Shown here: in pieces, positions 27,246 through 54,470 of the stretch | Numbering within the stretch: position 1 is the first letter of the stretch | Layout of the letters: the number at the start of each line of letters is the position of its first letter | Origin: Taiwanofungus camphoratus | Taxonomy: Eukaryota; Basidiomycota; Agaricomycetes; Polyporales; Taiwanofungaceae | Reading direction: 5' to 3' | Assembly: GCA_003999685.1 (NCBI GenBank) | Contig: CP021228.1 | Span: 1,240,001 to 1,304,000 of the forward strand | Length of the DNA stretch: 64,000 nucleotides | Position numbers and translations under genes: made by a program | The notes under the pieces: model-generated | What the model was told of the DNA's origin: nothing | The model's input: the letters and a program-made list of their open reading frames with translations, nothing else | Databases searched by the model: none

Positions 27246-27960
27246 CACACAATCCAGTAAGAAAACCCCATTGCAACAGGCCAATAAATGCTGAGTTTGG
27301 CCTGTTGTGAATGGGCCGTCCAATGTTGGCTGACCATTGAAACAAGCCCCATTGCAATGGGTTGGCTGGGCATGAATGTATTCCCATTGCAACAGGTCGG
27401 CCGAGGATGGTACCAGCCCATTGCAACAGGTTGGCCGGTGATGAGACCTGCCTGTTGCAATGGGTCAGCCAGGGATGGGATCTGCCCATTGCAATGGGTT
27501 GGCCAGGGATGGACCCATCCCATTGCAATGGGTTGGTCGGGGATGGACCCATCCTGTTGCAACAGGTTGGCCGGGCATGGGACTTGCCTGTTGGAATGGG
27601 TCAGCCGATAATGAGACCTACCTGCTGCAATGGGTCAGCCAGGGATGGGACCAGCCTGCTGCAATGGGTCAGCTGGCAATGGTACCATCCTGTTGCAATG
27701 GGTCAGCTGGCCATGGGACCTACCCATTGCAATGGGTTGGCCAGGGATGGAAGTATCCTGTTGCAATGGGTCAGCCAAGGATGGTACCAGCCCACTGCAA
27801 TGAGTCAGCCAGACATAGGACCTACCCATTGCAACAGGTTGGCTGGAAATGATACCAGCCTGTTGCAACAGGTCAGCCAGGGATGGACCCATCCCATTGC
27901 AATAGGTTGGCTGGTGATGGGATCCACCCATTGCAATGGGTCGGCCAGCCATTCCTTATT
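27246..27960. repeat. Left KDZ terminus: TIR plus 34 bp palindromic minisatellite
   Basis: About nineteen 34 bp units of the type CCATTGCAATGGGTTGGCCA followed by GGGATGGACC-like spacer. Each unit has a TTGCAA-centred palindrome (CCCATTGCAATGGG or CCTGTTGCAACAGG). The unit is not a multiple of three, yet no frame shows stops over long stretches, which creates spurious ORFs of up to 216 codons. Orientation is opposite to the arrays at 11.4 and 50.2 kb. Confidence 0.9.
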
Positions 27961-28100
27961 TTCAGAGATGCCTTCTGGCCCTTGCAGCAGCCAGGCCCAA
28001 TTTGATGCCTAAATAAAGGCCTCACTATTGGGTAAAGCCTTGATAAATTACAGCCATGTTCTGATATACAAAGAGTTTGAGAACAGGAATGTAGATACAG

Positions 28101-30830
28101 TTACATTTTGTATCTGTCTAGTACATGTGCTACAGAATCCATCCCCAAGGCATTGAAGTCCCTCATGTCAGTCAGCCTTTGCAAAGAATCAGCAGATTTG
28201 ACCTGCTCCACCCTGAGATGCTGATAAGCATATACCAACTGAGCAGCAGCTTGGGTCTCAGTGTGCTCATCAGCCCATCTCAGCAAGTCTGCCGAAAAAA
28301 CAGATTCTACATAAATAATGAGTGAATGCAAATGCAGGAGTTGGATGAGAGAACCATGATTGAGAACTCACCATTATCACTGGGGTCTGGCCCTTGAGCT
28401 TGTCCCCCTGCTGAGAATTGTGCCTGTGCATGCCCATGTACTATTAGAACCATGGAAAAGGGGAAAAAGGACTTACCTACCTGAGCCTGGCCCTCATCTA
28501 CCTCCATCTGATCTCCATGCTGCCCAGCATCAGAGCTGAGCTCTATGACATCCCCCTGCCCCTGCTCCTGCCCCTCCTCATCCTCCTCATCCTCATCCTC
28601 CTCATCATCATCATCATCCTCATCACTATCTGTCTCATACTGCAACCCCCCTCCAGAGCTCTGTCTCTCACTGCCAGATCCATCCCCAGATAGTGTTGCC
28701 ACAGCTTAGCTGCAGCTAAAAACAGAAATGTTTATAGCTTTATTGATCTAGAAGCTTAGAATATAAAACTAACATGCAATTATAATTTTTTTTTCTGAGA
28801 AGTCCATTGGTAACATCCTCATATCATAACTCTCAATAATTCTTTCACAATATGAGAATTTTGTGTATGACTAGTCAGCTTATCAGTCATGACTTGACAA
28901 TCAGCTAAATTCAGATATCTCAAGAACTTTTGCAGCTATTAACATGATTGTTGGCTCAAAATGAAGCTATAAATAAGGGCTATTAAAACATAGCAACATG
29001 TGTTCAGGTATATCATAAGCTGCACAAGCTAGAGGCAACATTCTGAAATGAGCAGCTAAAGCTGCAGCAACACTATCCTCAGAAGAGCCACTACTAGAAG
29101 AGGAGGATGAAGGAGGAGGGAGAGGTAGCCTCCTCTGGCTGGGACTCAATCCCACTGCCACAAACTCCTCATCAGCAAAAAACTCCCTATGCTTGATGGT
29201 CATCAACTCCATGTAGCCTGTGGAGGTCATGGTGGGATGTCTGAGGCTGAAGAGATCATGCCTCCACTTCTCAAATGGGGTGAGGTCAGGGTGAGGCTTG
29301 GTGGGCCTTTTGATGTCAATGATGGTGCCATAGATGGTGGACATCAAGCACCCAGGAGGAATGAGGTGGGACTCATGATACTTCTTCACATTTTCAGTCA
29401 GAGGGGTGACCTCCACATCATTGTCATGCATGAAGGGGGGGAGGGGGAAAGTGGACAGAAGGTGGGTTTTCTTGCCCTTCTTCTTCTTCAGCACCGGGGT
29501 TGTCCCACTCCCTGACAGCACCATGATGGGACCTGACAGCGCTGGTCCACAACCTGACAGTGACATGCTTGAACCCAACAGCACCAACCCATGACCCAAC
29601 GGCACCATGCTTGAACCTGACAGCACCGGTCCTTGATCTGATGGTGCTGGTCCTTGACCTGACAGCGCTGACCCACAAGCTGACAGTGCCATGCTTGATG
29701 CTGATGGCACCATTGCATGACCCACCAGTACCACACCTGCCCCTGACAGCCCTGCCACTCCTGAGATCTCTTCATGCCCCTCCTGGGCATCTTGTTGCAA
29801 CCTCTCTGCAAACTGAGGCCTGGGTCTTGGCCTTCCAGATGGCTCCTGCACCTGGCCTGGTGCTGGTGCTGGTGCTGGTGCTGGTGCTGGTGTAGGACAG
29901 ATGGGGGCAGACACCACTGTTGATCTGGCCTCCTTTCCTTTTGCAGAAGAGGGTGGGAAGGTCAGCCTGTTCAGGAATCCTTGATCTGGATGCTGATGGC
30001 TGTCTTGCTGATGCTGCAGGGGGGGTGGAAGCTGGGTCCACTCAGGTACTTGAGATAGAGCCTGGGGAGATGGAACTGACTGCAATGGGGGTGATGGTGG
30101 TAGAGTTGTCCACTCAGGCTGTTCAAAGGGGAGAGACCAGGATTGACTGGCAGATGATGCTGGCAGTGGTGGCAGCATGGTCCAGTCCAGTTGTTGGGAT
30201 GGCAGCTGGCCTGACTGGCCAAACAATTTTGGAGGTCCAGTGCTTGCCAGAGAAGAGTGGGATATATCCTGTGATTGATGGCTTGCTGATGATGGAGGTG
30301 GGGGAGGAAGTCATGTCCAGTTGGGCTGTCCAGATGTGTCCTGGGATGAATGCTGGGTGACTGGTGATGGAGGAGGAGGAAGCAAAGTCCACTCCAGAGG
30401 TTGGGAAGAGGTTCTGGAGGACTGTCCCTAAGATGAACAATGTGAAGCCACTGACTGTGAGGGGCCCCTGCTGCTCCCTTCCCTTCCTCCCTGGCCTCTC
30501 CCTCCTTCTGTCCCTTCTCTGGCCATCTCTGGGGCCACCCTTCTGGGGGTGGTGGAGGCAAACTCCACATGGTGGGATCCTGTCCTGTCCCCTGGTGCTC
30601 ACTGGGCTGATCAGATGAGGAGGGAGAGATGGTGGGTGCCTGCAGGGGCTGAGAAGGCCTGGTGGTGCCCTTGCCCTTGGATTGAGTGTCTGAAACAGGG
30701 CCATTGGTATCAGAAACAGGGAATTATTGAGAGCACTCACTCTTGAATGTGTTGGACATGTTGGATTGCTCAGAGAAATGATGAATTTCAAGCTCAAGAT
30801 CAGTGCAAAAACAGAGCTGGGATTGAACAT
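28101..30830 (-). CDS. KDZ cargo gene 1: WT-LPPP repeat protein with acidic tail, unknown
   Basis: Minus-strand gene with short introns. The long ORF 28967..30226 shows repeated W-T-x-L-P-P-P units (DWTMLPP, EWTTLPP, EWTQLPP), a Pro-Ala run, a Gly/Ser-Leu minisatellite-encoded region, then a compact domain with KKKKGKK, a YGTIIDIKRP stretch and FEKWRHDLFSLRHPTM. Downstream exons (28481 to about 28690, 28372..28410, 28101..28306) add a long Asp/Glu run and a helical end DRYKM. A hAT MITE sits between the two halves, and the long ORF now reads into it for about 30 residues. Upstream of 30226 the frame shows one stop. I recognise no domain. The acidic and proline-rich make-up suggests a chromatin or transcription partner, but this is inference. 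Confidence 0.5.
28691..29075. mobile_element. hAT MITE, copy 2 (385 bp)
   Basis: Same element as 11763..12149, with TAGTGTTGCCACAG and GCAGCAACACTA ends. Flanking octamers TCCCCAGA (28683..28690) and TCCTCAGA (29076..29083) match at 7 of 8 positions, a slightly decayed target duplication. It lies inside cargo gene 1. Confidence 0.9.
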
Positions 30831-31008
30831 GAGGAATCAGGCAGGCATCAGTAAGTTTCAGTCATGTGATCTATCTGAATGCGCCCATCACATGATCATC
30901 CCACGATCTTTTTTGCCATCATTCATCCATTGGTCATTGACACCACTGCATTCACTGTCCCATTTCATGCATCATCACACTTGCTTTTGAAGCCAATTCT
31001 AGCTTTCA

Positions 31009-34000
31009 ATATGTCTACCACCTCCTCAGTGCAAAACAGCCTTTATCTCATGGCCAACTGGGTGCATCTTGCCCTCTCTCACTTGCCTGGCCCCAACCAC
31101 TTACACCATATCTGGTTTGAGGAGAGGTTAGAGCAAGAGCTGGTACGTTTGTCACTTCTTCTGTTCATACTCACTCTATATACATCCATTCCAGCACCCC
31201 TTCCACAACCTCCTCATGATGGCCTCCACTGCTGGTGAGTGGCCATATGTGCCTGCAATCATCCTAAGCAGTGCAGGTGAATTTGTGCATGCTGCTCAGC
31301 ATGGTGTGCCAGTGCATCTGGAGGTCATTGTGGTGGATGATCTGGATGTCAAGGCCAACCCCTGGTACTCGGAGCCACCAGAGGGTGCCATGGCAGAGAT
31401 GGGGGAGGACAGCATGGAGGACACTTTGTGGCAGGCAGAAGGTGAGTAGCTGCATTATGATACTAGGACTTGGACTTACTGATTTCAATTATCCAGCAGT
31501 TTCAGGTGCCAAAAGGACCCAGGAGAAAGTTGTGGAGGATGAGGTTGAGAAGGGGCAGAGGAGGAAGAAGGTAAGGATGGGGCCAGATGTCACAGTGGTG
31601 CACAACACCAGTACACCTGCGGTGGTGCTGGTGGGGATGGACTCGAGTGCCATGCAGGCACTGGGTAGGGTGGAGGAGGATGTGGAGATGGAAGACATGA
31701 GTCCTGATGAGAGGGCACAGCACTGCAAGGAGAAGTGACCAGCACAGCGACCACCCACTCCCTCTCCACCACCATGCCAACCGCCCTGGATGCCCTGCAA
31801 GCCCAAGGGGATTTTGAAGCAGATGATGCTGGGACCTTCAGAGAATGAGTGGGGCTGGCCATTGAGGAGGAGCAGCCAGGCACAGTCATGATCCTGGTCG
31901 ATGTCTGCAGTGCTGAGTGAGCAGGGGAAGCTATCCTGGAGGCTGGAGGCAATGTGCTTAGAGGAATGGGCAAGGCCTATGGTGAGTCATGTGTCTTTTC
32001 CTCCCTCAATGGCACCTCACATATCCATAGGACCCACCATGCACTCGGTGTGAGCCAGGCAAATGTATCATTTCAACACACCCTGACCACCCGCTGACAG
32101 GCAAGATCACCACATGCAACTGGTGCCATTTTGCCAAAGCCAAGTGCACCCAGCCTCCACCCACAATGCGACACTGACAAGCCACTTTCAAAGTGGCCCA
32201 TATCACTCCCTCTTCCAGCCAGCCAGCACCAGACAAGAGGACCAGGAAGTTGGGGCAAGCCGATGGGGCAGAGCAGTGCACTCTGACATTGAAGAAGGTG
32301 AAGATGGCAGCCTCAAGGAGGAGATCACCCTCTCCTTCTGACAGGCAATCCAGTTCTGGTGGGGAGGAGCCTATGCCATCAAAGTGACCAAGTAAGCGAT
32401 TTTACCACCTTTCTTGATGTCTGCTCACTGATTTCCAGATCGTGCTTATGTAGATATCATGGTACCATGGGCACCAACACTCTGGGTACCATGGCTCGGT
32501 GACATGCTGGTGTGGCCACATCAGGTGCCAGCTGGAGACCTGGGAGAGCAGATGGAAATGTTGGAGCATGAGAACTTGGTCTTGCACTGATGGCTCACTG
32601 TGATGGAGTTGATGGTGGAGACACTGAGGGCAGCAGTGGAGGGGTTGGTGGGACCAGGGGTGTTGAACCTCCCAGGTAAGTTCCTATTTCCCCATCAACA
32701 GTCTGGCTGACCTACATGTTGCTCTAACAATAGGGCAATCCCCAAAGCCTGAGCAAGGGATTCCAAGAGACCTGGACACTGGTCTCATGGATTGAGAGGT
32801 CAGTGGAGGTGACCCAGCACCTCCACTAGACAACCTGGCACCACCACAAGATGACCCAGCACAACCACAGGAGGTCCCAGAACCACTCCAGGAGGTCCTG
32901 GCTCCTCCTGAAGACAACCCAGTACCTTCTCTGGGCAACCTGGCATCTCCATCAGATCCCCCAGCACTGTCTCACTACATTGTGATGCTGGATGCAAGTG
33001 ACCTGGTGATGGTGCACAACCACACCAGCTTGGATGAGCAGGAAGAAGAACAAGTCATATGGTTCTCCCTGCCAGATATGGAGAGGAGGGTAAGCCATAT
33101 TTTTACCCCTCCAATCATCAATCCAGCACCCCCGGTGTCTGCCACTGCCTCCCCTGCCTTGCCAGATCATGACCACAACAGCCTGGCACTGTGTGTGCAG
33201 GATCCAGTGCTGGTCTACCATTCAGCGGTGTTACAAGGCGATACAGGTGTGGGCATACATTTCATTTTCTCTTTACTTCATGGACCAGCGGGTCGTGTAC
33301 ACTTACGATTACCACCACCATTCCAGACAGGCTGTCCGTCCCCGCTTAGTTATGGACCGTTACTCAGAGGGGGCCGTTCAGGCCTCTGACTCAGAGACAC
33401 TTAGTAGGTACTGATATCTGTGGGGCGAGGGCCGACTTGCCCTAAACCCACTGTAGTACTTAAGGGGGTTGACTCACTACAGAGTACCCCAATCTTGTCC
33501 TCTTGTTTCTTACCTCCGTTACACTCTGGTAACCGTTCTGTTACCTTGTTTGTTACCTTGTCGTAGGTTACACTTTGGTAGCCTTAGTCTCACTACGTAC
33601 TTGGACACCGTCATTGTCCCTGTACTTTGTATATACCTTCATCTATTCAACGGGTCTTCTCAGACCATCTACTCTCTTGTGACTACACTTGGAGCTAGAC
33701 AACGCAACATAGCCTGCAACTCTCTCGAGACCGTTGGGCTAGCGGTTGAAGACTTAGACGTATACTCGTCATCAGCAAGGCTGACTCCTCACATACACGC
33801 TCGACTACTCAACGACTCACCGTCACTAGTAGTCGCTTACGGGCGTAGACACCCCCATAACAAGCGGTGCCAATCATTTATTATCCAGTGCCAGTCAGCA
33901 GCGGGATGGTGCTGGTCATCTACCCTGCAGTCTCAAGCCTGCATTCCCCTCCTCCTAAGTCCCTGGTGATGGGCAGTATGCTGAGTGGATATGGAGATGA

Positions 34001-34154: not shown

Positions 34155-34365
34155 AATACTAGTCTTTCCAGCATCAGCTCCAGCACAACACACATTGTTG
34201 GTGCTGCACCCATCATTGTCAGCACTGTAGACATTGTTGCCAGTGCTGCAGTCATCACTGTCGGCACCATAGACATCACTGCCAGTGCTGCAGTCATCAT
34301 CATTGGCACCACACTCATCGCTGCCAGTGTAGCAACCATTGCTGCCAGTACAGCAACCCTCAACT
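34155..34365. repeat. GCCAGTGCTGCAGTCATCA minisatellite
   Basis: About seven imperfect units of roughly 27-33 bp with core GCCAGTGCTGCAG, placed between convergent cargo genes 2 and 3. Similar cores recur at 38130..38345 and 44876..45115. Confidence 0.65.
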
Positions 34366-34431
34366 TCCTCCTCTCAATGCACTCTAAGCCACAGTCCTCC
34401 TTCCACCCCTATTGGCTGGCCTGGGTTTGGG

Positions 34432-37035
34432 TCATCCAGGCACCCCCTTCCCCTTCTTCCTAGATGATGATTCCATCTCATCCTCCTCCTCCACAGGCTC
34501 CAACTCATTCTTTTTCCTCTTCCAGCTCTCCTCCTTTTGACTGGCACCGTCCCTTTTGGGCACAGGTAGGACATTATTTTCAGCAGACTTGCCAGGCTGC
34601 ATCTGGGGATGCTTCAAAGCTGATCTGGTCAGTCTGGAGCTGTCCCCCATCACCTCAGTGCCTTCTGCCACCACCTCTATGCCTACCCTCATCTCATCAC
34701 ATGCAGGCAGCAGGACATCCTCCACCATGTCCTCACTGAGCACTGAGTTGAGAACATAGTTGGGCAGGTCAGTGGGCTCACCCTCCACTTCATTGGCCAC
34801 CTGGGCCTCTTCCAAGTCCCTGAGCATGAGCCCAATCACCAGCACCATGTTCTGGGTCTTCCCATATCCAGCTTAAAATTGTCCCCCCTGCTGGTGTAAT
34901 AGGGCTTTGAGGACAGCCACTGAGTGAACTTGGAGCCTGTGGCCATATTGCTGTGGACGGCTCTAGTACAGTGGGGGGGGGGTGTACTTCCACTCCCCTC
35001 AGGCCCATTGATGAGACTGATTGCCAGAAACAATAATGTGAGCCTGGGCAAGGAATGTTTAGGCTGCCATGATGAATATGGAAAGAACAACCACACACCA
35101 ATTTGGAGATGGCCTTGATGAAGTTGCAATATGGCATCTGTCAGGACAGACTAAGCAGATAGGTCTGTCTTGCCTCAGGACTGTTTTGGACCATTGCCAG
35201 TGACTTGAACTTGCTCCTGGGTATGGCCAGCACAAGAGTCCTTGATGCACTTCCTTCATCCTCCACATGACCAGCTACTGGCTGTCCTCCACCATGTCCC
35301 AGTGATGGCAATTGGGTATGTTGAGATACAGGTTTACCAGTGGGCTGACCACTGCCTGCCAGTGCTGTACTTGCACCCACCAGCACCATACTTGCACCTG
35401 CCAGCCCTGCATCTGTCCCTGCCACTGCTGCACCTCCTGTGAGTGGTGCTCTACCTCTGCCCACCACTCTGGGTGTTTGTATGTGACCTGACTGACCTGG
35501 TTCACTAGGTCCTGGCTCATTCCCATTCTCTATGTCACTTGGCTCATTGTGATGGCTACTGTCTTTGTCTGATTCAGCTGTACTCTCCTCATCTTGGGTG
35601 TGAGGTGGTGTCACCACCTTCCCCTTGCCCTTGTCCTTGCAGCCTGCCCACTTGGGATGATTGGGCTGAGATGGGACCCTCTTCACCAGCAGCTGAGGTT
35701 CCTTGTCCCTGCCCTTCCATGCCTCGAATTTGAAGGTGTGGTCCACCTCCAGGTCGTCCTGCTGATCAGACCAGAAGTTCAGAAGCCAGTCCACATCTGC
35801 CTGGATCATCTTGGTGCAGTCCTTCAGAGTGATGTCCTCTGGCATGTACACTGCTGAGATGTATTTGTCCTGCTCTGACTGCAACACCCCCCAAGGCACC
35901 TTCACCTCTGGCTTCCCACAGCACTTGACTATAGGACATCCCAGACAATTGGTCAGTCAGCCTGGCAGCTTGGCCACAGGGATGGGGACATACCATAATG
36001 CATCTGCACAAACTGTGCTATCAACTGCTTCTTTTGATTGAGGCTTGCTGCCGAGATGACTTCCTGAGATGAAAGAAGGGGCTCCCCATCCTCTGTGGTG
36101 TCCAGCTCCAGTGCCAGCTCCATATTCCTCTTCCTCTTCTTTGGCTCCTCCTCCCCATCAACCTCTTGCTCCAGTGCTGTCCTGGTGTCAATGGCTACCA
36201 GGATGGTGAACAACATGGGCTCTGGCACTCACCAAACTGGGTGTTTGCATATCTCTTGAACAACCTCAGATACTCCTCTAAGTTCCAGTTCACCACCTTG
36301 TCCTCCACCTTGTCCCCACCATCCAACTGGTCATTGAAATCAAAACTGGGGCTTGGAGGTGAGAGAGGAGAGGATGATTGGGGACTGCACACTCACTCTG
36401 TGGTGTAGATCTTGGCATTCTTTCCCCTGTACGCGCCCAGCACATACACCCTCATGCCCATCATCTTGAAGACATACTGGGCAAACTCCTTGACTGCCTT
36501 CTCCCCATGCTTCTCCACCCTGGCCATCTGGACATCTGCTGGAGCTCCCTCTGTGTTCCATATCTCAGCTTCCCTCACATAGGCAGTCTTCTGCTCTTCT
36601 GACACAGCAGCACACAACTGTGCTTTCACGGTCTGGTAATGGATGATCCACTGAGGGCTGCCTGGTTTGGCACCCTCAGTCGGAATGGCCATCCTGTGCA
36701 TCAGTTCCTCCTTGCAATGGGTCACCACCACACTCCTCCAGGTGTATGATGATTTGGGATCAAACTCTTTCCTCTCTGCCTTTTTCTCCTGCTTGTTCCT
36801 GGCATACTTCTTCAATGCCTGCATGGAGATGATCATGAGCACATCCTCTGTCATGTAGAGCAGAACCTCTCACCTCTTTCTCCTCATCTGTCAGCTTCCT
36901 GTTCTCCAATTCCTCCAGATCCTCGTACACATCCTGCAAGAACTGCGCTCGGGCTGCTCTGTCTGCCTGGTTCCACTCAGGGAACAGAGCATTGATGGCA
37001 TCCTTGTGAGTCTGAGGGATAGAGTTCCCAGGCAT
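34432..37035 (-). CDS. KDZ cargo gene 3: conserved mushroom hypothetical protein
   Basis: Minus-strand multi-exon gene starting MPGNSIPQTHK at 37035. Exon 2 (to 36393) has WRSVVVTHCKEEL, EAEIWNTEGAPADVQ and MMGMRVYVLGAYRG, a pattern I know from large families of mushroom hypothetical proteins that begin with a WN-x-PP-x-Q block. Then come a small exon with NWNLEEYLRLFKRYANTQ (about 36.2-36.35 kb), a Lys/Arg-rich nuclear-signal region KKRKRN (about 36.13 kb), a block with DVDWLLNFWSDQQDDLEVD (about 35.75 kb), low-complexity Ala/Gly and Ser/Asp stretches, and a C-terminal part ending near 34432 with two basic clusters. It is divergent from the transposase at 37254 with about 220 bp between starts, suggesting a shared promoter. 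Function unknown. Confidence 0.55.
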
Positions 37036-37253
37036 GGCTTAAGTGAGTGAGCAGCAGAGCAGTGAGGCAAGGCAGATCCCTAGTTTGATGCACTTCAGCT
37101 GTTGTACACTTTTGCTAAAGTCACTCCAACCCAATGGGTCACACCTGTTGTCACACAAATGTGCACTCACATGCATCTGCACTCAAGCTTCACAACACAT
37201 ATTTGAGTGCATTTCCTGTGTTTCTGCTCTTCACCACAAAACAGGTGAACCTG
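37036..37253. promoter_or_regulatory. Divergent promoter region, cargo gene 3 / KDZ transposase
   Basis: The 218 bp between the start codons of cargo gene 3 (minus) and the transposase (plus). No defined TATA box is seen. Divergence itself is the only evidence. Confidence 0.35.
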
Positions 37254-38345: not shown

Positions 38346-39739
38346 GACACAGGGCATACCTCATGCAACATTGGGACTGCCTTCAGAGTATTGACAGGCA
38401 TCATGCCCTTGTGGCATTTGACACCAGAAGCATCCATCAAATGATGGTCATGGTCAATACCTCTGGCATTCACCAACTTCCCATTCACTGGTGTGGGTGT
38501 GTGAATGCCCCCAGTCATGAAGACCAGCTGCTGGACATGGGCCTCTACTCTGCCAGCCACAGGCACATCAAAACTTGTTTCACTTTCAAGGTCCTTGATG
38601 ACTTCCTGCTGGAGAACCTCAAATGCAAGACCTCCACCCTCAACTTCTACAGCCAGCTCAGAAGGGTGACCAATCCCATTCTCTCTCAAGCCGTGCTGGT
38701 GAGTGATTCCGTGGCCACCCATCAGGAGGTTGCCAATGCTCATGGGGTACCCCATCATCAAGGACCGGTATCAGCAATTCCTCAGGGTCACCAGACAGTG
38801 GTCTCATCTCAAGGACCTCATGTGACATGGGTTTGGATACCCATCCAGACAGCAGCCTGGAGATGGTGACCTTTCCTTTTTCTGTGCTGCCTGCCCACAA
38901 CCTGGAGTCAATTTGGACCCAGATTGGAAGGAACATTCTGACCAGTAAGTGATCTGAGCCCAGTCTGGCTGTGCCCGGTCTGACCATGTCCAGATTGGTG
39001 TACACCCGAGGGTTTATGATGGATGGCAACTTCTCTGTGGAGCATCTCAAGATGAGGAGGCCCAAGAATGATGTGGAGATCACCGATGGCACCAGCTTCT
39101 TTGTGGCCGATGGCAGGTACAAGGCCCATCTCCAGGTCACCAAGGAGCTCAAGGGGGTAGGTTCCCATCTCACTGGTCCCCATGCCATGATCCCATGTGT
39201 CTTTCTTCCCATTGCACAGTCAGGCACCTGTCACAACCACAAGGCCATCAATCTGGCCAATGCTGACTGGCACAAGCTGGAGTTAGTGTTGCTGCAACTT
39301 CAGCTCAAAGCTGGCTGATAGCTGCAAGTTGAGCCATGACTTTCAGCAACTCAGCTTGATGCAGCTATGCCAATAGCCGGCTCTGCCTGTGCTGACTAAA
39401 GTTGTAGCTGTGACTTTGCAGTCAACCATAGCCGGTAGAGCTGAGATCACATGATGACACCTTACACACTCACTGTCCAGTGTCCCCTGACAACCACTCC
39501 CACTGCCAGAGGAGCTCAACAGCAAGTTCCCATTCATGCTTACAACACCACATGACTTCTACCTGCTCCACCATGAGCCATCCATGCTTGTTGAGATGTT
39601 CCACCACTTTGGCCTGTGCCTCAATGTCTGTGTGCCACTCATCATGCAGGGCATGAAGCTGCTCTACATGATGCTCTCTGACATCTCCTTCAGCATTGAC
39701 CCTGGCCTCCCCATTCACCATGTGCACACACTCCAGCTC

Positions 39740-41035
39740 AGCTGCACATGTGAGCCTGATGCAGGTGGACCTCCATGAGGTGAATGTGCACAAGAGCATT
39801 CAGCTTGTCAAGTGTGGTGAGTGGGACTGGCAGTGAGGACAAAAAGATATACAGCTTCTGCGGCCTTACCATCAATGTATGTTCTACTCACTACTTACTA
39901 AGACCCCCACATGCTCACCCACACCACTGCCCACAGCTCAAGTTCAAGTCTGGCTCCCTCACCCAGTACCTCAGCATCAGCCACACAGACTGCCTCCCCT
40001 CCACCAGCACCATCAACAACATTGAGGCCACTCTCTGCAGCTTTATTTCCACCAGTGCATCCTCTGCCTGTGCATGGCCCATGTTGCTGACACCATGTGC
40101 CACATGCAGACTACTACACAGATGAGGTGGCATTTCTTGCATGCATCAAGGTGAATGTGCTCACGTTCACCCTGATTGGCATGTGCATCTTCGTGTACAC
40201 CCACCCTGCCAGCACACTCAGCCACAAGGGCAAGCACATCACCATCCCCCAGGTGCTCTCCCCCAAGAATGAGGAGACAGTTGACTTTGAGGTCTACCAT
40301 GCACGTCCCCCACTCAGAGTGCAGGGCATGGATGGCAGATGCTGACCCACCCCACAGAGCACATGGGTGACACCTGGGTTCTGTGAGTACCACTGGCACA
40401 TGCAGCTGTTCATTCTGCTATACATTGAGGCCAGCTCATATATCCACAAGGATGAGGAGACATGGGAGTTTGTCATCCTGTGTGTGTGCACTTTCTTGCT
40501 CTGTCTGCGACCAGTGCACACTGACATGTTGTTGTGTTTGCTCCTGCTGCTGTTCCATGCAGCCACTATTCCTGGTTGGCCATTATCACCCACCACCTGA
40601 TGCCTGCACATCTCAACTGGGCATTGCACACCAGGCCCACAGATACAAAAAATGCAAGCACCAGAGCAATCCGAGCATCACAACATATCACTTTGTTGGG
40701 TACACAACACTGTTCCTGTTCTACTGCTTCCTGGAGAAGGTGTGCATGTGCATTAGATGAGCCGCCTCCCCATTTGCACACATGATGCCAATGTCCAGGC
40801 TGATGCACCTTTCCTCTGCTCCCCTTCACACAGCCAATTTGTGATCCTGCCACCATATCAGCAGGAGGGGCATGGGTCAGCAGTGTACCAGCATGTGCTC
40901 AGGGTGGCACACATCACAGAGCTAATGGTTGAGGACCCCGCAGAGGCATTCAAGAACCTGTGTGACTGCAACAACCTGAAGATGCTCCTGGCCAACGAGC
41001 ACTTCATGTGCAAGGCCCTTGGTGAGGGGAGGTGC
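39740..41035 (+). pseudogene. HAT1: HAT1 (type B histone acetyltransferase) copy inside the hAT
   Basis: Successive exons match the HAT1 order: DKKIYSFCGLTIN, a GT-AG intron at 39877..39936, LKFKSGSLTQYLSISHTD with TINNIEATLCSFI, then VDFEVYHA, FCEYHWHMQLFILLYIEASS, YHFVGYTTLFLFYC, and after an intron ending at 40833 the acetyl-CoA site SQFVILPPYQQEGHGSAVY and ELMVEDPAEAFKNLCDCNNL. HAT1 acetylates new histone H4. Family members have RDRND where this copy has CDCNN: Arg codons lost a CpG. In-frame stops are present, and the usual C-terminal region is not found after 41035. Introns are retained, so capture was at DNA level. Confidence 0.85.
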
Positions 41036-41082
41036 AGTGCGGTCAGTGAGAGGATGAATTTCTCAGAGCAAATCCCCACCCC

Positions 41083-42260
41083 ATGTACATGTGCCTGCAC
41101 AAGTACTACTGCATCAACCTGCAGCTCCTCATGCTTTCCAGCAGTGAGCTGGATGAGTTTGACAACAGGATATGCAACGCATGGTTCCCCACAATCCAGT
41201 GCCCACCCCCTGGCACTTGCATCCATGTGGGCAGCTTTGCATCCATGTCTACATCAGCTCCAGACTTGCTGCAGCAGATCTCAGTGGCTGCATTCTGGGA
41301 GATGGCAGCGTGGCACAGTGCTGCAAACTTGCTGTCACCATCCTTGGCAGACCTGGCACACAAGGGCACATCCCTCTTCAGCCAGTCCACATGCACATCC
41401 TCACCTGTACCTCACCTGCCCACCCATGTGCCCCCACATAGAACTGGGCACCATCATGTGGTGGCATCAATGCACTCAATGTCTTCTGAGCCAGACTCAG
41501 ACTCAGACTCAGACTTGGACTTGGACTCAGACTCTGAAGACTCGGCAGGTCATCAACATCAGGCCTGAGGTACAATGGCACAATCACACTGTGGTCTGCT
41601 GCAAAGGCACGCTTGGAGCTTGGGCACCATGCATGCTCATTGCTGTCCACATCACCTGCATTGCTCACCTTCACAACTGTGCCTGTGTTGCCCACCCTGC
41701 TGGTGTCACCCACATCAGCATCACCTCCTGTACTGCCATCACCAACTGCCTTGCAGAAGCTGAATGGTCACTTTCTCTCAATGCTGGACACTGATGCACT
41801 CACAGACAAGGGCGTCAAGGTTCTCTTGGACCCCACACTGATTGTGCCCATGCCAATCCACAAGTGCTCACCCCTGCTTGCATTCAGCATCACTTCATGC
41901 CCTGTGTCGCACATGCAGTCTGCCAGTGCACAGGGGCACTCACCACAATAGCATCAGCACCAGCTGCAGACACAACAGCAGCAGCAACAACAACCACAAC
42001 AACCACAACAGCAAATGCAGCAGTCCATCATGCACATTATCAGCTCCCCTCCCCAGCCCCTGCCCTCACCACCAACTCTGCCCCCCATGACTGCATGGGC
42101 AGGCAGGCAGCCACTCATCTCTGATGGTGGCATGCCTCCCTTGAAGGGTTCCACAGGCAACAGGCTCCTCATGGGCACCATGGGGAACCCTATGACACCA
42201 AGCAGCCCACCTGTGCCTGCACTGCACGCTGTGCACCACCACTCTGTGACAGTGAGCTAG
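41083..42260 (+). pseudogene. Second gene-like cargo of the hAT, unidentified, Gln-rich
   Basis: Plus-strand coding-like sequence with a Ser/Asp run (SDSDSDSDLDLDSDSEDS near 41490-41545), a block ALQKLNGHFLSMLDTDALTD near 41750-41810, a poly-Gln tract near 41955-42020 and a Pro-rich end with GMPPLKGSTGNRLLMGTMGN near 42125-42190. No family recognised. Features suit a transcription regulator, but this is a guess. Several frames are used, so it is probably an exon series or decayed. Confidence 0.4.
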
Positions 42261-44875
42261 GCATCAGATGCCCCGTGTGAGGACCAACTACAGATGCTTT
42301 GCCCATTCATGTGGCTGCTCAGATGTATGGGCAGCCCTGCACACCAGACCAACATGGGCCTGGGCTCAGGCTTGGGATCTGGATTGGGTGCAACATTGTC
42401 CTCTGCATCATCACTGTCACTCATGGTGCCTGTGCAGCCAGCACTGAAGACTCTCATGAGGCCATGCCAGCAGTCCAGTACAGTTGTGTCACCTGGTGCT
42501 GATGTCAGCTTGGGCCAGGGAGCTGGAAGTGGGACAGGTGCAGACACTGGGTGCACTGCTGAAGCCATTCACAGGTGGTACATTGTAGATCATTATATCT
42601 ATATACATCAATATAACTAAATACATTAGAGGTTGTTTAGTCACCATGCATTGACTAGAGTTGACTATAAGTTGCAGCTTATAGCCAGCTGATCACTAGT
42701 CATGACAAGCCAAGTCATGGTCGAGTTGCAGTATGCAAAAGTCACAGCTATTGTAGTCGGTTTGTGACTAGCCAAGCCATGGCAACACTAGCTGGAGTTC
42801 ACTGGGATTGGAGCCACTGCCTGTCCTTGGCATGGCTGCTTTGTGCCACACTCCATCATGGACTTTTAAAAGGGGGAGAGACAAATGAACATGGACTACT
42901 CCCTGTCCAATGCCATTAGATACAACACAAAGGACATTGACAGGATGCTCCTGCTTTATGACATCAACTGCCAGTATGGTCAGTATCTGCTGAAGCAGTT
43001 CCAGCAAAATCCCTATCTTCAGATGCCCAAAGGTCTGAAAATTGTCAAGGGCATCAGCCTGTTCCATGTGCATGGGCACCAGGATGCCTGCTTCATTTGA
43101 TACTCACCCAGCTTCATCCCTGGTGCCAGCCTGGTGGATGGGGAGATCCTCAAGACCCTTTGGTCTTCCCTGAACAAGGTGTCTGGCAGCACCAGAGGCA
43201 TGGCTACCTCTCACCAGAAGGAGGTTCTTAACCAGCACATGAATGACTCCAACTGGAAGAAGATCATCAACACTGGTATGATGGTCCTGTCCCGGCGATG
43301 AGTGGATTCGACTGACCCAGGGCATCCCACACAGTGTCTTCCTTGCAGAGGAAGTACAAGAACATCAAGCCCATACTGACAGACATCAAAAGGTCATATC
43401 AGGCCATGGAGGCCAGCATCGATCCCACTTTGCTGGTCCAGTGGAAACAGCAGATGAGAAAGGCTCAACAACACAGGCTGAAGGATGAAAAAGGCATGGA
43501 CATCTTTGACATGGAGCTCAGGAAAGGTAAGTGCATTGGCATGCAGCCAGAACCATCCCTTTTCAACATCAGCCTTCATTCTTCAGCACCAAGCCAAGCC
43601 AACATCCAACTGAGGCTGGCCAAGAAGGAGCCCCACCTGGGTTTGTCCCAAGAGGCTGTTGGATGGTTGACTCAGGGCCTGAAGGTTCAGGAGACACAGT
43701 GAGTGGCCCTGTGCATCATGACATTTTCATCCTCTCATGATGAGCACAGAATCTCATTGGCTGCTGAGGTCAGATCCATGGGCCAGAATTTGACCACCCA
43801 GCAGAAGATCCAGTTGATGGAGAAAAGGAAGAAGCTGCAAATGAGGATCAACAGCTTTGAGTCCCAAAGATCAAGGTACATGGCCGGCCTGATGGATGAC
43901 AATGGGGAGGAGTGGGAAGATGAGGTTTTACCATCAGACAAGGATCTGGGCCAGGAGTGGGATGTCACTGAGATGGACAATCCCTTTGAGGTGCCAAGTT
44001 CTCAAGGGGTCAACCCTGAGGTGAAGGCTGAATACTCATCCCTCTCCCTTCCATCCACCACCAGAGTGGACAGGTGCCACCAGGCAGGCCTACAAGTGCT
44101 TCTGCAACAGGAGATGGATCTCAGGGAAGGTCAGGCCAACAATGCCCTTCATCAGATCTGGATTGCCATCAGGCAAAAGTCATTCTTGTTCCACACCAAG
44201 GTGTGCAATGCCAAGTCCCAGCAGAGGAAGACCAGGGCATGGCAGGATGTCAACACCATAGACAAAACCCTGCAGCATCATGCCAGGGTGTACAGCAAGA
44301 CCCAGAAGGCTCTGGTGCTTCTTGAGGCCCCAGCAGACCTCCTGGCCAAGTATCAGGTTCTGCACAGAGAGCACCTGAAGGTGAGCACTGCAGTGGCAGA
44401 TCCCAATGAAAGGGGAGAAAGGGGGGCATCTCTTCCATGGTTCTGGACCATGGATATTCAAGGGGAAAGCGACACAGACTCATATATGCAGGAGTACCAT
44501 CACCCCTTGGACTGTGTCTCATGAATGGCTGATGTTGAGGGTGACAGTTTATAAGGTGAATTGGTTTAGGGCAAAGTCCAGGTATGACAGGGTGGTGGAA
44601 GAAGAGAAGCAGCTGAGGTATGAGATGAGGTTTGCTGCCCACTACTTTGCCCACCAGAGCAAGATGTGGGTGAGGCTCATGCAGGAATCCACAGACAGGG
44701 ACCAGATGGGTCATAGGGCATATGATGCTCAACAGGCATTCTTGTACTTGGCATTGGCAAGAGATGCAGAGAGGCTATGTCAATGGGTAGAGAAAGTAGC
44801 CCATGTATTGTAGGATGTTTGTATACATGCATGACCACAGCCTATGTCAACATCACATAAATACCATGGAGTGAC

Positions 44876-45115
44876 TCTTGGGCTGCTGGCACCACTACTC
44901 CACTTGCTGGCACTGCAACTTCACCTGCTGGTACTGCTACTTCACCCACCAGTACCACAACTGCACCCACCGGCACTGCAACTTCACCAGCTGGCCTGGT
45001 CACCTTTTCTGCTGATGCTGCACCTTTCACTGCTGGCACTGTTACTTTGACTGCCAGAACTGCATCTTGGACTGCTGGCACTGCTACTTTGACTGCACTG
45101 CAACTTTGACTGCTG
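44876..45115. repeat. GCTGGCACTGCTACTTC minisatellite
   Basis: About nine imperfect units of 24-27 bp with core GCTGGCACTGC between the KDZ transposase stop and the accessory gene. Copy A keeps only the last few units (8100..8215), because of the deletion there. Confidence 0.7.
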
Positions 45116-45210
45116 AGACCATTACTGTGACATCTGCACAACAGTTCAAGCTTTCAGGAAGAAAATTGATATCATTTTGTGTACAAGCTACAGATAAATT
45201 CACATGACAA

Positions 45211-46268
45211 CTACAGAAGCACAGGCTCCTTCTCCAGGTCCCATATCTTGGCAATGATGTCAATCTTCCTGAGCATATTGACCCTCACCCCAATCTCATA
45301 CTCCAGCTGCTGATTCACATGCAGCATGTGGGCCTGCACTCCCTCCAAGTACTTCACAATGGACCTATCCATCTGGGCAGGCAACTTCTCTGCCAACTCC
45401 TCCAGATTGGGCCCCTCATATGCTGGAACAGCCAAGACAGCAGGATGTTGCTGCTCCTCCACATGGGCTCTCCATTCATTGATCTGTGTGGTCTGGTTCA
45501 AGATGGAAGGGGACAAGAGGTGTTTAGAGAGTACTCACCTTTCTCTTCATGCCCCTCACATTAGCCTCAGCATCCATCTTGCACTTGAGGGCAAACACCA
45601 TCTCTTGCCTCAGATACCTGTCATTGCCCTGAAAGATCTGCTGGACAGACTGCAAGAGATCCAGGATCTCTGGAGGACAGGGAGGAGGGGCATCACCCAT
45701 CTGGGCCTTTCACCAGTTGCCCATCCTGATGGCATGATCTTGGGAGATGCTGGGACCTGGGGCACTGCACAACTTGAGGTTGGGATGTGACCTGGATTTC
45801 TCAACAGCAGGGTGCTGGAGATCCTCTGATGGGGTCTGGATCTCAGTGGGCCCTGTGTCCACCACACTCTCAGACTCCCTGGGCAGTGGTGAAGCCAGCT
45901 GGGCCTATAGAGGATCATGAACTGCAGGCAATGAAAGAGTTCAGGATGACACTCACCTGATGGAGAAACTCCTGCATATCACTCTTCACCAAGTCCTCAA
46001 GGCTGGGAGGGATGTGAAGATCCAAGCCTGCAATGGCCCTCAGGCCAATGGTCATGGCAGCCTGGAGCTGCAACAGGGGATGTGAATGTGTGAGTCCTTC
46101 AGACAATGGCACCAAGGGTCCATCATGTACTCACCACTCCCTTGGCCATGACCTCTGCACCTCTGCATCCTCAAGGAAGGTGTTGGCCCTCATGATCACC
46201 AGATGGACAGGGAGGATCAGATGTGCCTCCATAGAGTCAAGCAGGGAAATGGTAGCAGCAGAGGCCAT
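45211..46268 (-). CDS. KDZ-associated accessory protein (copy B), unknown function
   Basis: Minus-strand gene parallel to 8308..9263. Start MASAATISLL at 46268; second exon at about 45958-46068 (AMTIGLRAIAGLDLHIPPSL), a Ser/Pro/Glu-rich exon at about 45640-45906 longer than in copy A, a short exon near 45535-45605 and the last at 45211-45501. The final 101 residues (45211..45516) are identical to copy A although surrounding DNA differs by several percent. The extra part of the middle exon holds one in-frame stop or an unrecognised intron. No domain recognised. Confidence 0.55.
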
Positions 46269-46501
46269 TGAGGTCACAGAGGTATTATGGACAGGGAGGT
46301 GAATGGGATGGAGGTGGGAAGGCTGATATCAGATGCATCATCTGAACCTTAAAGGTCACATGACATGCCGCTGATGGACTAAAGATCAGCACCTCTACCC
46401 ATGGGCATGGTAATTACAGATGCTGAGCAAGTCACAAAATTTCACATTCATGAGGTCTATCAAACTCATTGATGGATTGCAGCACTGGCAGCAAGAGGTG
46501 C

Positions 46502-46643
46502 ACCAGTGGAGACAGGTGCAGTGCTGGTGGGCAGAGGTGAAAGAAGGAGGTATGGCACCATCAGGTCAGGTCCAGCACCAGTTGGCAGAGAAATGGTGCC
46601 ATTGGGCAGATGTCTGATGCTGTCAGGGTTGGTGTGGCACCGG
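46502..46643. repeat. GCACCA/GGCAGAGG minisatellite, left part (copy B)
   Basis: Continuation of the copy A array at 9470..9860. Here it is split by R2; the right part is at 48283..48650. Confidence 0.65.
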
Positions 46644-48282
46644 TGATGCACACTATAACACTCCAACCCCAACCGACCTAGAGAAGCTGGATGGCTATAG
46701 TACTAGTTAGTGTGCTAGGGGAGAGTCAGCAGCAAAGGGTTCCCGATCTCAAGTGGGTCAAGAGACGTCTATGAAGGTCTTTGATGACCTATGACGTGTG
46801 TCACGACTGCTTGAAGTAGCTTCGATGCGCTACTATGCTGTACTGTACTAAGGAGAGACTAAACATGAAGACTTAGCTGATACGCAGCCCTTCTTACTGT
46901 AGAAGGTGGACTTGGGTTAGAGATGAGATGCTAGCGCAACCCTTCAATGTGACTCGAAGGTGGACGTAAGACTGAATGCAACCCTTTGATGGATGTCGAA
47001 GACGGACGAGATGCAACCCTTCAAGATACTGTAGAAGGCAGATGATAGATGCAACTCTTCGAACGTAATCGAAGATGGAAAGATGCAGTGGAACGCAGTA
47101 GGAGACTGACTCGAAGGTGCTCTTCTTGAGCTCTGCAGGATGGGGGAAAACTTTCCTGTCGTTTCGAGACACCATACATCACGTTTATACTACTGTACTA
47201 TAATGTAAGGCACATCAGGAGTGGCGTAGTACCAGTGGCATCCTAACTACTTGCGTACTATGAACTACGGAGTGGTCTGTAGAGGGAGTGGCTACTGTAC
47301 TTGACATCACTATGAAGGCTGAAACAAAGGAACATACATGAAATATACTAAGACAAAACCTGGGGCTGTAGTGTTATCAAGTGCATCGAGTGGCACGTCA
47401 TAGTAGATTGAGCGATATCGGAGTGGTGAGACCGATCACGTGCGAGGACCTTGAGTGGCCACTGCGTGTGGCGTATTGTGCATAGAGAGAATGGTACACC
47501 AGAATGTCAGACCGGAACTGGCTGAGTGGCTGTGGCGTGATTCAAAGCTATCTGTTATGGGGGTGTCTACGCTTGTAAGCAACTACTAGTGACGGTGAGT
47601 TGTTGAGTAGTCAAGCATGTATGCGAGGAGTCAGCCTAGCTGACAACGAGTATACACCTAAGTCTTCAACCGCTAGCCCAATGGTCGAGAGAGAGTTGCG
47701 GGCTATGTCGCGTCATCTAGCTCCAAGTGTAGTCACAAGAGAGTAGATGGTCTGAGAAGACCCGTTGAATAATCAAAGGTATATACAAAGTACAAGGACA
47801 ACGACGGTGTCCGAGTATGTAGTGAGACTAAGGCTACCAAAGTGTAACCTATGGTGACTGGTAACGAAGGTAACAAACAAGAGGACAAGATTGGGGTACT
47901 CCGCAGTGAGTCAGCCCCTTAAGTACTATGATGGGTTTAGGGCAAGTCAGCCCTCACCCCCACAGGTATCTGTACCTACTAAGTGTCCTTGAGTCAGAGG
48001 CCCGGACGGCCTCCTCTGAGTAACAGTCCATAAGTAAGCAGGGACGGACAGCCCATCTGGAATGGTGGTGGTAATCGTAAGTGTACACGACCCGCTAGTC
48101 CGTGAAATAAAGAGAAAATGAAATGTATGCCCACACCTGTATCACCTTGTAACACTATCAGAGAGTCTCATGGTGGCTTTTCAGGCTGTATCAGATGCGT
48201 CGAGTGGCGTCGAAGCCATGACTAAGGTCCTAGGGTCAAGTGAGGGCGCTCCATGGGGCCTAGAAGGGCCTGGCACCTATCA
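46644..48282 (+). repeat. R2 repeat, copy 3, containing LTR-A
   Basis: Starts TGATGCACACTATAACACTC and ends ACCTATCA; without the LTR and its duplicated CTATC it is about 1.03 kb and collinear with 22852..23896. It is inserted in the GCACCA minisatellite of the KDZ element; copy A has no R2 there. Flanks CCGGT and CCTGT may be a decayed 5 bp target duplication. Confidence 0.75.
47553..48154 (-). mobile_element. Solo LTR-A inside R2 copy 3
   Basis: 602 bp, TGTTATGG...CTTGTAACA, with a perfect 5 bp target duplication CTATC (47548..47552 and 48155..48159). It gives a relative order: KDZ, then R2, then this LTR. Confidence 0.95.
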
Positions 48283-48650
48283 CCTGTGGAAAGAGATACA
48301 GCATCATTGGGTCAGGTATGGCACCAGTTGGCAGAGGAATGGCGCTGTCAGGTCAGGTACGGTGCTGATTGGCAGAGGAATGGTGCCATCAGACAGAGGC
48401 ACAGTGCCAGTTGACAGAGGAACAGCACCATTGGGCAGAGGCATGGCACCAGAAGTAGGAGGTCTGATGCTGGTGAGAAGATGTACAGCACCATTGGGTC
48501 AGGTACAGCACCAGTTGACAGAGGAATGGCACCATCGGGCAAAGACACGACACTGGAAGTAGGAGGTCCAGTGCTGGTGGGAAGATGTATGATGCCATCG
48601 GGTCAGGACTGGTGCCATTAGATAAGGTCCAGTGCCTGTGGGCAGAGGGG
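48283..48650. repeat. GCACCA/GGCAGAGG minisatellite, right part (copy B)
   Basis: Units such as GGCAGAGGAATGGCGCTGTC and GGGCAGAGGCATGGCACCAG, about a dozen imperfect repeats, directly downstream of the TET/JBP stop codon. Confidence 0.7.
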
Positions 48651-48717
48651 TGGTGGATGGAGTCCTTTGATGTCTCGAAGCTTGATCATTGGATCAATGT
48701 CTGAGAGTGTGGGCATG

Positions 48718-50101
48718 TCAAGTTGTATATAACACTCCATCATATGTATCTACACTCATCCAACCAGCCAAGGACACCTCTGCTCTCTCATGTATCTTGG
48801 TCCTCATATAGCAGGCTAGACATATCCTCTCCTCCTCCTTTCCCACCACCCTGTGCAAAATGGTCCTCCTAGACAGGGCTGTGATGGTCCCACTAGGATA
48901 GGCCAGTCTCACCCCCACCCCCTCCAGATCCAAGGTCAAATCTTGAGAGTTCCCAATGGTCACCAAGATGTCATACCAGCATGCCATGGCCTTCCAGTCC
49001 CTGTGACTGGGACTTTCCCTGTTGGCAATGAAGCTCATGGCATTGAAGGGGGAATGCCATTCCTTCAGCACCTCATCCACCCCTGGAAGCCATTGCATCC
49101 CTCTCAATGAGGCCATGCCAGACCTGTAAAGCTCAGGGTGAATGATGCTCAATATTCCCCCTATCAAAGCAGAGGTCTCTCTCATCCTCTGCAGCCATAT
49201 CCTGCTCACAGAGTCTGGCTTCTTCAGCACACTGCAAACCTCTGGATTGAAACTCATGCTCTGGGTGTTGGCCTCATGTCAGAGCTGGTGTGAGCATAAA
49301 ATTCCTTGTCACTCACCTCATGTCCTTGTTGAAACCATGATGGGGACAGGTTGATGCATCCAGGGAGGAACTGCTCACACTGGTCTTCATCCATGTAATA
49401 CTCAGACTTGATCCTCCAGTTGCCTTCTGACATGGGATGATGGGATTTCAACACCTGGTTCAGCATTGCTGAATCATCCCATATCTGGTGCTGACCATCT
49501 CAGACATCATGCTCATCATCACAAGCAAAAATCAGGTCAAACTCACCTGATGCTCTGGGCTCAATACATCAGGTAAATGCCATACCAGAATCTTTCCATA
49601 CTGATCCACCACAGTCACTGGAGTTTTGATGACTGGCATGAGATCATCAAACAATGGAGGGAACTGTTCAGAGATCCTGGTCTCCTGAGTCTTGTTAAAC
49701 CCAGAGATTTGAGGGGTCAGCTGTTCAACATAGGCTTCAATGTCCCAGGGCACTGTCACTGCTCAATTATACAAGATCAGCAATGGGGACATCAGAACAA
49801 TTGTCTCTGGCTCACAGCAGGTCATATAGGCTTCTGCCAACTTGGCAGATATCTGATAGGCATTTTGAACAAATGTCAATGAGAAGCTCAAGCTGGGGTA
49901 TACAGAAAAGGGAGGTGGAGAGGGATCAGGGGACATTTGAGACAGGTGATGCAAGAAAAGTTGGTGAAGGTAAGATGCCACATTCTCAGTATATTCAAAA
50001 TGATTGGTCATAGGTGTGCTCATGACAGTTTCATTCAAAACCAAAGGTAATGAGTCTGAGGTAGAGTTGGAATTGGCAAGTGGAAAAAAAATGAATGACA
50101 T
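48718..50101 (-). CDS. TET/JBP-family 2-oxoglutarate/Fe(II) dioxygenase, apparently intact
   Basis: Four exons on the minus strand: 49816..50101, 49547..49758, 49317..49490 and 48718..49272. All introns are 44-57 bp with GTGAG donors and AG acceptors, phases agree, and the total is 409 codons with stop. Catalytic exon: NRESPSHRDW gives the Fe(II) H-x-D pair (about His313 and Asp315), then WYDILVTIGN, LAYPSGTITALS and ILHRVV with the distal histidine (about His363), followed by RICLACYMR. That order is the double-stranded beta-helix core of TET/JBP enzymes, which oxidise 5-methylcytosine (or thymine) in DNA. No CXXC or HMG domain is seen; the first 220 residues are helical and unassigned. It is the last gene of the KDZ element, just inside its right terminal array. 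It shows no break, unlike its paralogue at 9931..11296. The start at 50101 is the first in-frame ATG compatible with splicing. Confidence 0.85.
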
Positions 50102-50224
50102 GGACCAAATGCATGTATACAGTGACAAACAATATAACAATGACTGTAAATGGAAGCCAATAAAAAATATATGTATGTAATAGACAAAATCAGCAAAACA
50201 TGGGCAGAAACAGGTTGAACCCAG

Positions 50225-50657
50225 TTTAGCTGACCCATCCTTGCCTGACCCATTGCACCAGATTGGGTTCATTGCTGATCAACCCATTACAGCTGGCTGG
50301 TTCCATTGCTGGCCAACCCATTACCACAGGCTGGTATCCTGCCTGGCCAACCCATGGCAACAGGATGGGTCCATCCCTGGCTGACCTGTTGCAACAGGCT
50401 AGTCTCATGCCTGGCTGACCCATTGCAACAGGATGGGTTCATCCTCAGCTGACCCATTGCAACAGAATAGGTCCATCCCCAGCTGACCCATTGCAACAGG
50501 CAGGTCTCATCCCTGGCCAACCTGTTGCAACAGGTAGGTCTCATGCCCAGCTGACCTGTTGCAATGGGCTGGTCTTATGCCCAGCTGACCCATTTCAACA
50601 GGTTGGTACCCTGCCTGGCCAACCCGTTGCAACAGGGTTCTTTTACTGGATTGTGTG
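50225..50657. repeat. Right KDZ terminus: palindromic minisatellite plus TIR
   Basis: About twelve 34 bp units (GACCTGTTGCAACAGG, then spacer like CATCCCTGGCT), reversed relative to the left array, ending in TTTTACTGGATTGTGTG. The array starts about 120 bp upstream of the TET/JBP start codon, so it could also form part of its promoter. Confidence 0.9.
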
Positions 50658-54429: not shown

Positions 54430-54470
54430 TTACCCCCATCTCCTCCTAGATGTCGTCCCGACATCTGTTA

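Follow-up and report, generated by a model that had tools for sequence, protein, structure and literature searches.

The window analyzed here, a 64,000-nt stretch of the genome of the fungus Taiwanofungus camphoratus, contains a large transposable element in which a KDZ transposase gene and a TET/JBP dioxygenase gene lie between inverted termini and two oppositely oriented minisatellite arrays (Table 1). A second element of the same family (copy A) is represented by its right part, and one and a half element copies in one window form the whole evidence base. The main copy spans 23.4 kb (27246-50657): its left tip CACACAATCC opens at 27246, its right tip GGATTGTGTG closes at 50657, and the first 35 bp of the two ends, when inverted, are identical at 30/35 positions, as the original prediction had it. 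The terminus of copy A at 11578 is identical to the left tip at 32/35 positions and to the right tip at 31/35. When the left 35-mer was run against the window, these two right termini were the top two minus-strand matches, and the third (22/35) lay within the right array. The 14-mer ACACAATCCAGTAA, with up to two mismatches allowed, gave three matches (0.72 expected by chance at that tolerance), all exact and all at the three ends; neither scan found another family tip between 27246 and 50657. The tip form 5'-CA..TG-3' is present at the three ends, and at each of them the first palindrome of the array begins 22 bp from the tip. The DNA beyond the tip is not the same in copy A as in the main copy, so that the right boundary is documented at two sites, which bears out the earlier claim of a doubly supported boundary. 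The left boundary is also supported, as homology to a gypsy reverse transcriptase (RT) reaches 27244, directly adjoining the left tip.

Inside both tips lie arrays of one 34-bp unit in opposite orientation, a layout anticipated beforehand and confirmed both by unit reading and by Tandem Repeats Finder (TRF), which calls the unit at 27383-27946 and, over overlapping rows, at 50266-50636. Inverted ends composed of tandem units are of the foldback type. The palindrome CCYRTTGCAAYRGG, with one mismatch allowed, matches the window 29 times (0.15 expected), and 29/29 matches fall within the three arrays, that of copy A included. Successive units are spaced exactly 34 bp apart in 25/28 steps, the remaining steps being 81, 35, and 68 bp, and 29 distinct sequences are found among 30 units. 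Array size varies by copy, with 11 right units in the main copy and 2-4 in copy A. The unit can be divided into a 22-bp core and a 12-bp spacer; outside the CpG columns described below, deviations occupy 23/420 cells in the core and 111/360 in the spacer (p 1e-21, for a border drawn after the units were seen). The core is much more conserved than the spacer and, because it deviates far less outside the CpG columns, looks to be under selection.

Four dinucleotides of the unit, at columns 3-4, 11-12, 16-17, and 20-21, each vary as whole dinucleotides. Over the 30 units, the counts of CG/TG/CA/TA are 0/18/12/0 at columns 3-4 (one-sided Fisher p 1e-8), 1/19/9/1 at columns 11-12 (p 7e-6), 2/12/16/0 at columns 16-17 (p 1e-6), and 5/9/15/0 plus one AA at columns 20-21 (p 2e-4), these p-values overstating the significance since array units are not independent. 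When the four sites are pooled (30 units x 4 sites = 120 cells), TG (58) and CA (52) together account for 110 cells, followed by CG (8), TA (1), and AA (1). A filter for adjacent column pairs with at least 70% CG/TG/CA/TA is passed by 7/33 pairs, and four of those seven are the signature sites, which hold both TG and CA. Deamination of a CpG on one strand yields TG or CA, whereas independent base changes would yield many TA; the mixture of TG and CA with almost no TA therefore points to decayed CpGs, and the four core dinucleotides vary as decayed CpGs do. We infer that the ancestral core read CCCGTTGCAACGGG, a perfect palindrome, followed by TCGGCCGG, and that two of the four CpG sites sat inside a perfect 14-bp palindrome with the ancestral form CCCGTTGCAACGGGTCGGCCGG. 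The units fall into 19 site-haplotypes, which, together with the 29 distinct unit sequences, speaks for much separate decay. In a control array at 60577-60728 (period 15, 10 units), albeit a weak control, 9/14 adjacent pairs vary and 0 hold both TG and CA, one pair reading CG 3, TG 1, and TA 1 among others.

The traces of methylation extend beyond the arrays. The element has a CpG observed/expected ratio of 0.12, compared with 0.25 for the window and 0.59 for a long terminal repeat (LTR) element at 53.9-62.2 kb, and the arrays are special only in the layout of their CpGs, not in CpG loss. Across 3,833 sites aligned between the two copies there are 27 whole TG/CA exchanges, where the null gave a mean of 3.0 and at most 8 in 1000 draws; the eight other adjacent double transitions counted number 0-6 each. 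This excess of TG/CA exchanges suggests that methylation and decay went on in both copies after their separation.

That a KDZ transposase and a TET/JBP dioxygenase are enclosed by these ends, also part of the original prediction, was confirmed by Pfam (E 9.3e-34 and 3e-18, respectively). The PF18758 domain and the associated cysteine cluster (CxC2) that characterize the KDZ superfamily are both present. The transposase gene is broken: the second part of the domain has one internal stop in 42792-43100, and a TGA is read at 43098-43100. Its C-terminus has a ratio of nonsynonymous to synonymous substitution rates (dN/dS) of 0.35 between copy A and the main copy. The element is filed as KDZ and is closest in features to the Kyakuja lineage, a class set by features rather than by placement in a KDZ tree. 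Aligned to CcTET, the dioxygenase retains the HxD motif and distal His, which are metal ligands, and the Asp of CcTET position 337, which is needed for activity on 5-methylcytosine (PMC12730594), and is by this alignment of the AG type; the residue at CcTET Gly331 is Ala, and Gly or Ser is reported at that position (PMC12730594). A stop at 49763-49765 in the likely upstream TET coding region was read by eye, as was one at the matching place of copy A (~10958-10960), and this shared stop would be either inherited or the outcome of two separate decays.

Table 1. Features of the KDZ element, its nested insertions, and copy A (positions of the window)
Feature	Position	Strand	Evidence
Left terminal inverted repeat, tip CACACAATCC	27246..27280	+	Inverted match 30/35 to right tip, 32/35 to copy A
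Left array of units with a palindromic core, 19 read, spacing mostly 34 bp	27267..27961	+	TRF, palindrome matches, unit reading
Left-half cluster of open reading frames (ORFs), up to 447 aa, low-complexity and acidic stretches, split by a miniature inverted-repeat transposable element (MITE)	28100..30836	-	ORF list; no Pfam match above cut-off
hAT-like MITE, TAGTGTTGC ends, 385 bp	28691..29075		Second copy at 11763-12149, 98% identity
Solo LTR, 634 bp	33229..33862	+	5-bp target-site duplication (TSD) AGCGG, 5/5
Left-half ORF cluster (146, 271, and 158 aa ORFs)	34432..36869	-	ORF list; no Pfam match above cut-off
CxC2 cysteine cluster of KDZ transposase	38426..38674	+	PF18803, E 4e-21
KDZ transposase domain, first part (profile 3-65)	39007..39264	+	PF18758, E 1.6e-5, 25.1 bits, cut-off 26.6
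hAT-like element with HAT1 remnants, 3,507 bp, interrupting transposase	39284..42790	+	TAGTGTTGC...GCAACACTA ends, 8-bp TSD GCTGGAGT, 8/8
KDZ transposase domain, second part (profile 71-217), in-frame stops	42789..43253	+	PF18758, E 9.3e-34, 117.5 bits
C-terminal transposase region	43316..44810	+	ORFs, copy A homology, dN/dS 0.35
Stretch of short ORFs separating KDZ from TET, shared with copy A; candidate accessory gene	45214..46570	-	ORFs; no Pfam match above cut-off
Dispersed repeat, ~1.0 kb of own sequence, absent from copy A	46642..48282		Other copy at 22850-23896; exact ends approximate
Solo LTR inside dispersed repeat, 602 bp	47553..48154	-	TSD CTATC, 5/5
TET/JBP dioxygenase domain, 186-aa open frame	48721..49278	-	Pfam Tet_JBP E 3e-18; CcTET 8jkk/7vpn E 1.8e-18
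Upstream region, likely N-terminal TET coding pieces in several frames, no family match	49279..50130	-	ORFs, copy A homology
Right array, 11 units read, inverted relative to left array	50230..50636	-	TRF, unit reading
Right terminal inverted repeat, ending in GGATTGTGTG	50623..50657	-	Inverted comparison of tips
Copy A, a second element represented by its right part: C-terminal transposase region, accessory ORF, TET (3 stops), short array, and the family tip	7462..11578	+	Homology to main copy

The initial description of 23 kb with at least five genes was inflated, as nested insertions sum to ~6.2 kb and leave ~17.2 kb; what stands is a KDZ element of ~17 kb with TET, inverted ends, and inverted arrays. 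Besides the KDZ and TET genes, this remainder holds two ORF clusters in the left half and, in the interval separating the two genes, one stretch of short ORFs. The four further genes that had been proposed are indeed visible as gene-like stretches, but only HAT1 has a family match, and that one is part of a nested insertion; for the remaining three, which are ORFs, no family match rose above cut-off. Six-frame Pfam scans covered 27950-32901, 34350-39301, 39200-43341, and 45100-50051, and the ORFs 43316-43699 and 43703-44521 were scanned as ORFs; in the four stretches only KDZ, CxC2, and Tet_JBP rose above cut-off, with Hat1_N, AF-4, and EIIA-man below it. For the 158-aa ORF (36396-36869), a single-sequence structure model had a mean predicted local distance difference test score (pLDDT) of 44.6, too low to be informative. 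The left half has no second copy for comparison, and further insertions there could be missed.

The stretch at 39284-42790 has TAGTGTTGC...GCAACACTA ends, a type that we take to be hAT-like, and is flanked by a perfect 8-bp duplication (GCTGGAGT on both sides), the combination of 8-bp TSD and short terminal inverted repeats (TIRs) by which hAT elements are recognized. On these grounds the HAT1 remnants (Hat1_N E 7e-4, below cut-off; yeast HAT1 4psw E 7.7e-11) belong to a nested passenger, and two other explanations, that the stretch is a single 3.5-kb transposase intron and that HAT1 is cargo of the KDZ element, were rejected. HAT1 is the type B histone acetyltransferase, and an epigenetic-enzyme gene has in this case been captured by a second transposon family, a hAT-like element lodged in the transposase gene. 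A Pfam scan matched no transposase domain inside 39284-42790, and no search was made for a partner hAT transposase. Directly next to copy A lies the right end of a relative of this element (7264-7461), for which no left end was found; a Zn2Cys6/Fungal_trans transcription factor gene lies just beyond (minus strand, ~5.9-6.9 kb), so gene capture is a possibility. The MITE at 28691-29075 is bounded by the duplication TCCCCAGA/TCCTCAGA (7/8), and its copy at 11763-12149 by GCATAGAT (8/8). One LTR-like repeat of ~600 bp is present in five copies (2803-3392, 13367-13962, 33229-33862, 47553-48154, and 58362-58943), for two of which the 5-bp duplications were recomputed.

The insertion at 46.6-48.5 kb of the main copy is absent from copy A. 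Within the accessory stretch, the ORF at 45214-45534 is identical in both copies, and a segment of ~440 bp (45200-45644 versus 8300-8741) is ~100% identical amid ~93%, which suggests recent gene conversion or exchange between the copies. To the right of the element, an LTR pair (53946-54429/61718-62201, 96% identical) encloses 8.2 kb with a gypsy RT on the minus strand (57.4-58.1 kb), and this LTR element is probably younger than its surroundings because of its CpG ratio. Ferric reductase-like FAD and NAD binding domains, the NAD part below cut-off, occur at ~15.1-15.6 kb and probably belong to a host gene.

We consider it fairly probable that the element is a dead copy of a large, TET-carrying, Kyakuja-like fungal KDZ transposon, the arrays of which were clustered dimer-binding sites that host methylation silenced and the element's own TET kept usable. 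From the anatomy of the arrays, which is observed directly, we infer their function: they would act as clustered dimer-binding sites for the transposase or an accessory protein, the candidate binders, and binding would let the element protein locate and pair the two ends. Host 5-methylcytosine on the array CpGs would block or silence the ends, and the element's TET would oxidize it away, such that ends and promoters stay usable; after copies lost the enzyme, methylation and deamination would have eroded the array sites. Parts of such a mechanism have precedents in TNPA on the subterminal repeats of CACTA elements (PMC2613891), foldback tandem ends (PMC3169594), and VANC (PMC5735166). A stronger version would make the ends a self-targeted epigenetic switch: docking of the KDZ transposase complex on the arrays would be sensitive to methylation, which would thereby gate transposition competence, and demethylation by the element's TET would reset it. 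We judge this version rather unlikely.

A number of observations weigh against the favored interpretation. CpG loss is window-wide and thus gives no sign that methylation was directed at the arrays in particular, and the core/spacer p-value rests on non-independent units and a post hoc border. Two haplotypes account for 10/30 units, so some units may postdate the decay by copying. The TET domain shows no sign of present selection, with a dN/dS of 0.73 between the copies and with stops in copy A (3), although the main 186-aa frame has 0. Only one left end was seen. In an alternative that we hold to be somewhat unlikely, the arrays would be neutral minisatellites that arose by TIR slippage, had no binding role, and carried a CpG pattern recording general methylation of a silenced repeat. 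CpG depletion throughout the window and the element and the variation of array size between copies are in line with it. A conserved core beside a variable spacer is unexpected for neutral units, and the regular 34-bp spacing, the inversion of the arrays at opposite ends, and the fixed 22-bp distance of the first site from each tip also count against it. That ordinary host minisatellites flank the KDZ locus by chance is hardly credible, for although minisatellites are common and others exist in the window, the palindrome matches are confined to element ends, copy A included.

The flanks raise a different question, that is, whether the 23 kb is one insertion. The TSD of 7-8 bp known from the KDZ superfamily was not found at 27246/50657, the best agreement being 4/7 at 7 bp and 4/8 at 8 bp, and it was possibly lost by rearrangement; among 3,000 random site pairs, 4/7 is the commonest outcome (50%) and 35% do better. 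A 4-bp TSD, TCAG, was rejected, as it lies one base out from each tip and a 4/4 match occurs in 17.5% of random site pairs. Retroelement fragments lie on both sides, apparently in opposite sense: a plus-strand gypsy RT on the left, and on the right an LTR with an adjoining stretch, of opposite sense by comparison with the element at 53946-62201 if the minus-strand RT belongs to that element. Both points also count against the favored interpretation, and owing to them a single clean insertion is not claimed. They would fit a chimera, the left and right ends coming from two copies of the same family joined by recombination via the arrays or internal repeats; the ~440-bp segment hints at exchange between copies, and foldback ends have been reported as apparent hotspots of ectopic recombination (PMC3169594). 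However, the transposase homology continues without a gap across the hAT insertion, from profile position 65 to 71, which makes the middle a single piece; the two tips belong to one family; and the absence of a TSD has a precedent in Zisupton of Pristionchus, for which none was detected according to the available part of that report (PMC9297572). A chimera appears unlikely. We regard it as quite improbable that the KDZ/TET transposon is really a smaller internal unit and that the left 10 kb belongs to another element or to the host. Except for the MITE and solo LTR nested in it, no further copy of the left half was found in the window, and its ORFs have no Pfam family above cut-off, but the interior holds no other family tip, and the left tip, its array, and the 22-bp offset agree with the right end.

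The association of KDZ elements with TET/JBP genes in basidiomycetes is already known, as had been stated at the outset (Kojima 2025, PMC12730594). Escape from methylation silencing is offered in that paper as the likely role of transposon TET, a function described there as not experimentally validated. The 34-bp unit of the ends described here, with its four inferred CpGs, is a short and well-defined target for methylation on which the escape idea can be tested. With the TG/CA signature, further methylatable arrays that have decayed could be located in fungal transposons using only their sequence. As far as literature searches reach, foldback-like ends made of CpG palindromes are undescribed: in the open-licence literature, no paper pairing KDZ transposons with minisatellites, or KDZ with subterminal, was found, and in the main text of Kojima 2025 'minisatellite' is absent and 'tandem' occurs once, in a reference title. 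Relatives were sought with a TET query of viral contigs and a KDZ query of viral and prokaryote contigs, and none was confirmed; the sole locus in the viral contigs to match the tip pattern was judged a chance match by an estimate from collection size.

Among known systems, the closest in features are the TET+ Kyakuja elements of Agaricomycetes, which occur in five orders of Agaricomycotina and likewise combine a KDZ transposase and an AG-type TET/JBP in one element with 5'-CA..TG-3' tips (PMC12730594). The Laccaria families Kyakuja-1_LB and Kyakuja-2_LB have CA..TG tips as well, but they are described as having 7-bp TSDs and no TIRs (PMC12730594), whereas the present element has a 35-bp TIR, arrays, and no TSD, a difference that also speaks against our assignment. 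KDZ1-3 of Cryptococcus share a KDZ transposase with a CxC domain and TIRs, but they are 9-11 kb long, with TIRs of 139-241 bp, TSDs of 4-8 bp, and CxC1 instead of CxC2, and the accessible text mentions neither TET nor arrays (PMC12810828). In the foldback-type Tm1 of root-knot nematodes, the inverted ends are similarly composite, made of a tip and a variable number of tandem units (PMC3169594); Tm1 and Galileo differ in having Mutator- or P-type transposases, with no CpG palindromes or TET mentioned in the portion of the source at hand. The CACTA element Tgmt* of soybean, 20.5 kb in size, has subterminal repeated motifs that can form palindromes and are presumed binding sites of a TNPA-like protein encoded by the element itself, yet it belongs to another transposase superfamily, with 13-bp CACTA TIRs and a 3-bp TSD, and TET goes unmentioned in the sections available (PMC2613891). 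As a model of how the system might work, the anti-silencing of plant VANDAL elements comes nearest, in which a protein encoded by the element binds motifs that cluster in tandem repeats and thereby causes loss of methylation on the element's own copies (PMC5735166). There, VANC is described as a motif-binding anti-silencing protein and not a TET, and the motifs lie in introns and upstream non-coding regions rather than in tip arrays. The epigenetic switch outlined above, if true, would parallel the plant VANC system, with a TET in the place of VANC and foldback-like ends as its seat.

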